Below are positions 41,173-42,748 of a stretch of DNA of 64,000 nt, piece after piece; position 1 is the first letter of the stretch; each line of letters starts with the position of its first letter. The position numbers and the translations under genes are program-made. Under the pieces are notes generated by a model, which saw only the letters and a program-made list of their open reading frames with translations, searched no databases and had not been told where the DNA came from. Source of the DNA: an uncultured Marmoricola sp. (GTDB lineage Bacteria; Actinomycetota; Actinomycetes; Propionibacteriales; Nocardioidaceae); NCBI GenBank assembly GCA_937868075.1, contig CALMLL010000006.1:1-64000 (forward strand), read 5' to 3'.

Positions 41173-41543
41173 ACCTCCTCACCCCCGAGGGGCTGGTCGA
41201 GTTCTGCCTCGGCCTGCCAGGAGCCTGGGCCGACAATCCCTGGGACCATGACTACCCAGTGATCAAGGTGGGTCCACACACCCGCGGCAAGATCTTTGCG
41301 TTCATCGGCGCCGACTCGGTGGGTATCAAAGCGGGTGCGACCCGCGAGATTGCCGACGAGTGGCTGCACCGTTACCCCGCAGACGCCTCGTTGATGGCCT
41401 ATCTCGGGCGTTCAGGGTGGAACAACCTGCGATGGGGCGGTGACATCTCGAACGAGGAGATCTTCGAGGCGGTCCAGGAGTCCTATGACCGGGTCGTGGC
41501 CGGCCTCCCGATGAAAGCTCGCCCGGTGGGTGGTCATGCCTGA
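41169..41543 (+). CDS. MmcQ/YjbR-family protein
   Basis: 124 residues of the MmcQ/YjbR (CyaY-like fold) family: [37 protein letters not shown] and the C-terminal [26 protein letters not shown]. Family members are thought to bind DNA but have no known reaction. It begins with GTG overlapping the uvrB stop codon, so it is translationally coupled to uvrB and may be an accessory in DNA metabolism. Confidence 0.85.
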
Positions 41544-41583
41544 GTTGGGGTCGAGGGAGGGCATCTGAAACACTGCCGATCTG

Positions 41584-41720
41584 TGGAGGGGAGTATTCCC
41601 CCGCGGTGGCGTCGTCATCACGGCTTCGGCCCGGTGCCATCGGTTCCCTAGGAACGGAAGAGACCTCCGGTAGCAGTGCCTCGTGGAGATCTCCCACGAG
41701 CAGTGAGCTGTCCGGAGGAG
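41584..41720 (+). promoter_or_regulatory. Candidate yybP-ykoY manganese riboswitch with expression platform
   Basis: GGAGGGGAGTA at 41585-41595 is the conserved 5' part of the yybP-ykoY aptamer. The 3' part GGAACGGAAGAGACCTCC ends at 41668, and GGAGG (41585-41589) pairs with CCTCC (41664-41668) to close the P1 helix. CCTCCGG (41664-41670) can instead pair perfectly with CCGGAGG (41712-41718), the Shine-Dalgarno region of the terC gene. A hairpin (CTCGTGG/CCACGAG, 41680-41700) lies between. This suggests translational control: Mn2+ stabilises P1 and frees the ribosome binding site. TerC genes are a known class of target for this riboswitch. Confidence 0.8.
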
Positions 41721-41725
41721 GACGT

Positions 41726-42748
41726 ATGCAGGTCTCGCCGTTGGTGTGGGGAGTGACCCTGGCGGTCACCGTGGTGGTGTTCGTCTTCGATCTGATCGTG
41801 GTCGGTCGGCGTCCTCACGAACCTTCGGTCAAGGAGTGCGTGGGCTACCTGTCGATCTATGTCGGGCTGGCCATCCTCTTCGGGATCGGGGTCAGCGTGG
41901 CTGCCGGCTCGGACTACGGCATCGAATTCTTCGCCGGATGGCTCACCGAGTACTCCCTCTCGGTCGACAACCTCTTCATCTTCTTGATCATCATGGCCAA
42001 GTTCGCCGTACCTCGTGAGCTGCAGCAGTACGCACTCATGGTCGGCATCGTGATGGCCCTGGTGATGCGCGCGATCTTCATTGCGCTCGGTGCGGCCGCC
42101 ATCAACAACTTCTCCTGGGTCTTCTATGTGTTCGGTCTGTTCTTGATCTGGACGGCTTGGAAATTGGCGCGCGAGGGAGCCGAGGACGAGGACGAGTACG
42201 AGGAGAACCGCCTGGTCCTCTTCGTCGAGCGCAGGTTCCCGGCAACCTCTCAGTTCCAGGGCCGCTCTCTGATCGCCAAGATCGACGGCAAGCGACTCAT
42301 CACGCCGATGCTGATCGTGATCCTCACGTTGGGGACCACCGATCTGCTCTTCGCCCTGGACTCGATTCCGGCCATCTACGGCCTCACCCGCGAGCCCTAC
42401 CTCGTCCTGACCGCCAACATCTTCGCCCTGATGGGTCTTCGCCAGTTGTACTTCCTCATCGGTGGCCTCCTGGAGCGGCTGATCTACCTCTCCTACGGCC
42501 TGGCGGTGCTGCTCGCGTTCATCGGGGTGAAGCTGATCCTCCACGCGATGCACGAGAACGAACTCGGCTTCATCAACGGTGGCCATCCGGTGCACGGGGC
42601 GCCGGAGATCCCGATCTGGCTCAGCCTGGTGGTGATCGTGGGGATCCTGGCGGTGACCACGGTGCTCAGCCTGCGGGCCAGCGCGGCCATGAGTGACCAA
42701 GAACGCGATCAGCGCACTGGCCCTCGCCGCACCTGGGAGGAAGACTGA
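41726..42748 (+). CDS. TerC-family integral membrane protein (probable Mn exporter)
   Basis: 340 residues with about seven to nine membrane segments. TerC hallmarks are acidic membrane motifs: WLTEYSLSVDNLFIFLIIM (about 75-95) and LDSIPAIYGLTREPYLVLTANIFALMGLRQLYFLIGG (quoted in part; about 212-245), each with a conserved Asp. Members such as Alx and YkoY export manganese, and the upstream riboswitch supports Mn2+ as the ligand here. ATG 41726 follows GGAGGAGG at ideal spacing, and an earlier in-frame codon would fall inside the riboswitch. Confidence 0.92.
   Translation: MQVSPLVWGVTLAVTVVVFVFDLIVVGRRPHEPSVKECVGYLSIYVGLAILFGIGVSVAAGSDYGIEFFAGWLTEYSLSVDNLFIFLIIMAKFAVPRELQQYALMVGIVMALVMRAIFIALGAAAINNFSWVFYVFGLFLIWTAWKLAREGAEDEDEYEENRLVLFVERRFPATSQFQGRSLIAKIDGKRLITPMLIVILTLGTTDLLFALDSIPAIYGLTREPYLVLTANIFALMGLRQLYFLIGGLLERLIYLSYGLAVLLAFIGVKLILHAMHENELGFINGGHPVHGAPEIPIWLSLVVIVGILAVTTVLSLRASAAMSDQERDQRTGPRRTWEED

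Follow-up and report, generated by a model that had tools for sequence, protein, structure and literature searches.

A putative P2-less yybP-ykoY riboswitch with a predicted Shine-Dalgarno-overlapping switch ahead of terC in an actinomycete

The terC gene of an uncultured Marmoricola sp. is preceded by a leader element whose two ends can pair with each other, and whose 3' end can instead pair with the ribosome binding site of the gene; the question raised by this arrangement is whether the leader is a manganese riboswitch of the yybP-ykoY type and, if so, how it might act on terC. Here ‘the window’ denotes the whole stretch of 64,000 nucleotides that was analysed. The leader follows a YjbR-family ORF that ends at 41543, 41 nt ahead of P1, and the ATG of terC lies at 41726 (Table 1). 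The conserved ends singled out by the earlier note, GGAGGGGAGTA at 41585-41595 and GGAAGAGACC at 41656-41665 (the latter continuing into CCTCCGG at 41664-41670), do close a P1 helix, in which GGAGG and CCTCC form 5 bp with no mismatches, and which covaries among relatives. When the window was shuffled by mononucleotide 300 times, the pattern GGAGGGGAGTA..GAGACCTCC did not turn up once.

Table 1. Predicted parts of the terC leader, in window coordinates
Feature	Position	Strand	Remarks
Putative yybP-ykoY-type (Mn2+) aptamer, without P2	41585..41668	+	R1 covariance model; RF00080 below cut-off
P1.1 5' strand GGAGG	41585..41589	+	
L1 loop, 5' side	41590..41595	+	from conserved GGGGAGUA, 41588-41595
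P1.2 5' strand UUCC	41596..41599	+	partner 41656-41659; covaries
4-nt linker, in the place of helix P2 of four-way-junction members	41600..41603	+	
P3.1 5' strand	41604..41614	+	partner 41632-41642
L3 loop UCAUCAC	41615..41621	+	
P3.2 hairpin	41622..41631	+	
P3.1 3' strand	41632..41642	+	
P4 hairpin GUUCC-CUA-GGAAC	41643..41655	+	covaries
P1.2 3' strand GGAA	41656..41659	+	covaries
L1 loop, 3' side GAGA	41660..41663	+	
P1.1 3' strand CCUCC, common to P1.1 and anti-SD	41664..41668	+	
Predicted anti-Shine-Dalgarno CCUCCGG	41664..41670	+	
Hairpin CUCGUGG..CCCACGAG, loop between anti-SD and SD	41680..41700	+	no T run after
terC Shine-Dalgarno CCGGAGG, hidden in the predicted OFF state	41712..41718	+	
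terC, 340 aa, TerC PF03741	41726..42748	+	Pfam; identity to E. coli Alx

Several hallmarks of the class can be read directly from the leader. The L1 letters, GGGGAGUA on the 5' side and GAGACC (41660-41665) on the 3' side, are both present, and A41617 of L3 aligns with the Mn2+-sensing adenosine (A41 in L. lactis, A48 in X. oryzae), whose published contexts are UC-A41-AUUC and AC-A48-UACU respectively, the counterpart in the window being UC-A-UCAC. The GUCA of L3, to which this adenosine belongs, is unchanged in 67 of 67 leaders. All 67 leaders of alignment A2 also have a linker of 4-5 nt and no P2, such that the junction would be a three-way one formed by P1, P3 and P4. The four-way junction with P2, as seen in the crystallised members, is not found in the window aptamer, although this is not a class-defining feature, since E. 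coli alx is without P2 too.

A covariance-model match to RF00080, which the earlier note had put forward as a check, did not materialise: across a 301-base stretch around the leader the score was 15.4 bits (E 0.022), far under the cut-off of 45, the weak alignment covering GGGGAGUA and the CAU letters of the loop. No Rfam family reached its gathering threshold anywhere in the window (a match to sR14 in the scan of the 301-base stretch was dismissed as chance), and a search of the complete genome from which the window comes gave no RF00080 match at E<=10; over 296 genomes of the class the model matched 11 at E<=0.01, with 0 above the cut-off. In a control of eight loci the same model (Rfam 15 copy, 177 positions) gave E. 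coli mntP 41.6 bits, which is below its own cut-off, and did not list E. coli alx at E<=1. As alx is a studied riboswitch, a failure of the model that misses it says little on membership, and we dropped Rfam as sole judge of the matter. The RF00080 model may need rebuilding, and surveys based on it will undercount Mn2+ riboswitches in Actinobacteria.

We therefore aligned the leaders of 14 relatives (alignment A1) and built from these a covariance model, R1. RNAalifold recovered P1.1, P1.2, P3, P3.2 and P4 from A1 without the family structure as input; 94.4% of cells were paired, with double changes in 50 cells, a level reached by 0 of 500 shuffles. The window itself scores 85.8 bits (whole-genome E 4.1e-17), partly by construction, since it is among the 14 training sequences. 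At E<=0.01 R1 detects the element in 127 of the 149 same-family genomes sampled and in 169 of the 296 sampled from the class (set against none over the RF00080 cut-off), with carriers named in record titles as Mycolicibacterium, Amycolatopsis, Micromonospora, Saccharopolyspora, Nocardioides, Marmoricola, Kitasatospora and Streptomyces; 27 of 30 terC loci have a match, the element being missing from L009, L010 and L022. A further locus, L151 (labelled Verrucomicrobia), was rejected as a carrier, as it fits the motif pattern and not the aptamer. R1 also matches the validated E. coli alx element (32.6 bits, E 6.7e-7), which points to homology, and does not match the E. coli mntP leader, a difference explained by the linker of about 4 nt in alx as against a P2 hairpin in mntP.

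Within 91 copies chosen for diversity, 94.2% of cells were paired and 21 of 31 pairs carried double changes; cells with double changes numbered 373, whereas shuffling gave 120, with none of 500 shuffles reaching the real value, and slid controls never exceeded 98. This alignment leans towards the model, because it was fitted to the model's structure, whereas A1 was not so fitted. All five helices covary, with compensatory changes in P1.1, P1.2, P3 and P4, and even the outermost pair of P1 varies among the 91 copies (GC 66, CG 5, AU 4, GU 4, UG 3, unpaired 8, gap 1). Taken together, the comparative evidence (R1, covariation, homology to alx and the link to terC) bears out the earlier proposal of a yybP-ykoY riboswitch ahead of terC, and supports the assignment of 41585-41668 as a putative Mn2+ aptamer of that class, with membership resting on R1.

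The downstream gene fits a role in manganese homeostasis. Its 340-aa product matches TerC (PF03741) at 3.6e-50 and shares 34% identity with E. coli Alx, whose annotation is that of a Mn exporter; from this similarity, export of Mn2+ by the TerC product is likely, albeit the literature describes what TerC proteins do in Mn homeostasis as unclear or controversial (PMC10550928, PMC13274385). A motif search across 220 loci gave 203 copies of the aptamer, 174 of them distinct, and a terC ORF lies within 330 nt of 167 of the 174, counts biased in favour of both the pattern and terC, since some of the loci were chosen by one or the other. For the remaining seven no terC was found: four run into the end of the sequence, and at L139, L190 and L205 there is no terC there.

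How, then, might the aptamer reach terC? The strand that closes P1 is complementary to the terC Shine-Dalgarno (SD) sequence, and the two pairings are mutually exclusive. The perfect match of CCTCCGG to CCGGAGG that the earlier note had pointed out holds in the window (7 bp, 0 mismatches) and recurs elsewhere: in 99 of 169 distinct leaders (the 174 copies minus 5 without a CCTC tail) the 150 nt that follow the P1 tail contain its exact 7-mer complement, against a chance level of 3.6 on average and 9 at most over 500 shuffles. For the commonest tail, CCTCCGG, the figure is 96 of 116. Beyond the SD core, pairing extends to position 8 in 46 of 62 non-redundant leaders (21.9 when permuted) and to position 9 in 36 of 62 (18.3 when permuted), both with 0 of 5000 permutations as high and with phylogeny ignored; in the window itself position 8 is a T:T mismatch. 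The signal stops at position 9, with no clear pairing excess at positions 10-13 in the same 62 leaders.

Within the core the picture is different. At positions 5-7 tail and SD do not covary: of 53 tails other than CCTCCGG, just 3 are followed by a 7-mer that complements them exactly (1.4 on average when permuted); where these tail positions vary, the SD mostly stays CCGGAGG, and the pairing in such leaders is consequently shorter or mismatched. The missing covariation would be accounted for if 16S rRNA keeps the SD under selection, yet these positions then supply no compensatory evidence. Little variation is seen in the inner CCUC, in line with a strand that has to fit two identical partners, and CCGGAGG is absent at some aptamer-bearing loci. 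Overall, the comparative evidence favours the predicted switch between P1 and the SD, as had been suggested.

Folding calculations give a sense of the balance between the two forms. Left free, 41581-41745 folds at -71.6 kcal/mol with the anti-SD:SD helix formed (pair probabilities 0.95-0.996) and the SD hidden; with P1.1 forced, exactly the aptamer fold is obtained, at -62.0 kcal/mol. Among 87 representatives the anti-SD:SD helix has a probability above 0.5 in 75, and P1.1 in 1. In these models the OFF form is thus favoured thermodynamically without Mn2+ or tertiary contacts, and the gap of 9.6 kcal/mol is large for Mn2+ to close at equilibrium, which suggests that control may be co-transcriptional. 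The scan revealed no intrinsic terminator between the aptamer and terC (a weak terminator-like site at 41767-41779 lies inside terC and was judged irrelevant), and a sigma-70 promoter scan returned no match.

Synthesising these findings, we propose that terC is very probably controlled by a yybP-ykoY riboswitch that turns translation ON, the Mn2+ ligand and the direction of the response being taken from the family. With Mn2+ absent, the 3'-terminal CCUCCGG of the aptamer would pair with CCGGAGG, leaving terC untranslated. When cytosolic Mn2+ is high, the ion would bind between L1 and L3 by way of A41617, with the P1 and P3 arms docked; this would stabilise the weak 5-bp P1.1, as Mn2+ is reported to do for P1.1 in X. 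oryzae (PMC6754395), such that P1.1 regains CCUCC. The SD would then be freed and a TerC/Alx-type membrane protein made, probably removing Mn2+ or passing it outward. Both the function of TerC and the placing of control at translation, not at Rho or stability, are what we infer here.

Alternatives differ in how much of this scheme they leave standing. Were there no riboswitch at all, the leader would simply hide the SD in a hairpin, or would resemble the family by chance; the sub-threshold RF00080 score and a 191-nt fold that is not unusually stable (z -1.12) are in keeping with this, and yet it is contradicted by the conserved loops, by covariation over 91 copies and by homology to alx, so that we give it next to no credence. 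An aptamer of the family that senses another divalent metal in this lineage, or pH as well, is a more reasonable proposition, in that variants with other ligands are suspected in a review (PMC7266159) and alx is reported to respond to alkaline pH also (PMC9603457); with the Mn2+-sensing adenosine kept throughout the 67 leaders and a TerC/Alx homologue downstream, we nevertheless hold it to be quite improbable.

The level of control is where a rival has most room. An untranslated OFF leader would expose the mRNA to Rho, and Rho-dependent termination or mRNA stability might then be the main effect; Rho is reported to act on the E. coli mntP leader (PMC11647493), and the gap between aptamer and terC holds no intrinsic terminator. 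Rho alone, however, would not need the SD pairing, which is conserved and covarying, and we regard this as unlikely, if still worth keeping in mind, beside the translational switch that we prefer.

Related aptamers occur at other loci. A second subtype of the Mn riboswitch lies ahead of GDT1/UPF0016 genes at L090, L091, L092 and L095 (same-family genomes) and at L093 and L094, with R1 scores of 47.9-68.3 bits; the identity of the genes comes from Pfam (PF01169) at L091-L094, and from a similar N-terminus only at L090 and L095. At L090, L091, L092 and L095 a GC-rich hairpin and then a short T run precede the gene, which suggests a transcriptional platform there, as opposed to the translational one on terC. 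Another relative (L089:410-1411, - strand; R1 58.9 bits) sits ahead of a sodium/calcium exchanger family gene (PF01699), and strong aptamers without terC downstream are found at L139 and L205, in Kribbella and a Pseudonocardiaceae genome (83.1 and 98.6 bits). Kushneria aurantia is a gammaproteobacterium; a contig labelled with this name (L218) carries an actinobacterial-type aptamer of 79.4 bits ahead of a terC-like start, for which transfer, contamination and a wider range are the alternatives.

We also speculate, tentatively and with rather more doubt than confidence, that throughout Actinomycetes terC is as a rule regulated by a P2-less three-way-junction subfamily of the Mn2+ riboswitch. 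Its platform would be as direct as can be, with two identical GGAGG strands, the 5' strand of P1 and the SD, competing for one CCUCC without a separate anti-anti-SD, and the subfamily would be largely uncounted because the current Rfam model misses it. What may be new is this clade-wide, P2-less, directly overlapping platform, along with the failure of the present Rfam model to capture it; no paper on the P2-less form or the overlapping platform was found by title or the start of the abstract, which is weak evidence. The leader as proposed would provide a simple Mn2+ ON switch, open to test and spread over a large clade. Actinobacterial hosts could draw on it as a candidate Mn2+ sensor part, and its three-way-junction aptamer invites comparison with the crystallised four-way ones.

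Set beside known systems, the leader combines familiar and unfamiliar traits. The yybP-ykoY leader of C. glutamicum terC (cg2157), a 5'-UTR seen by RNA-seq (PMC3890552), is likened to ours by actinobacterial origin and gene only, and it makes the association of yybP-ykoY with terC in Actinobacteria one already known. The E. coli mntP leader shares GGGGAGUA in L1 and, as published, translational control by Mn2+ (PMC11647493), but has a P2 hairpin (GAUUUCC..GGAAAU) and serves another gene family. The crystallised L. lactis and X. oryzae aptamers are alike in their L1 and L3 loops, the Mn2+-sensing adenosine and the P1.1 switch helix; their reported structures, in contrast, are built of P1/P2 and P3/P4 stacks around a four-way junction (PMC11087558, PMC6754395, PMC9190785), and they are described as acting by transcription antitermination. 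E. coli alx, reported to be Mn-responsive (PMC9603457), differs in a longer leader between aptamer and start, with other hairpins and without the CCUCCGG/CCGGAGG pair, but has in common with the window GGGGAGUA in L1, UCGUCA..AC in L3, a short linker for P2 and a TerC-family gene downstream.
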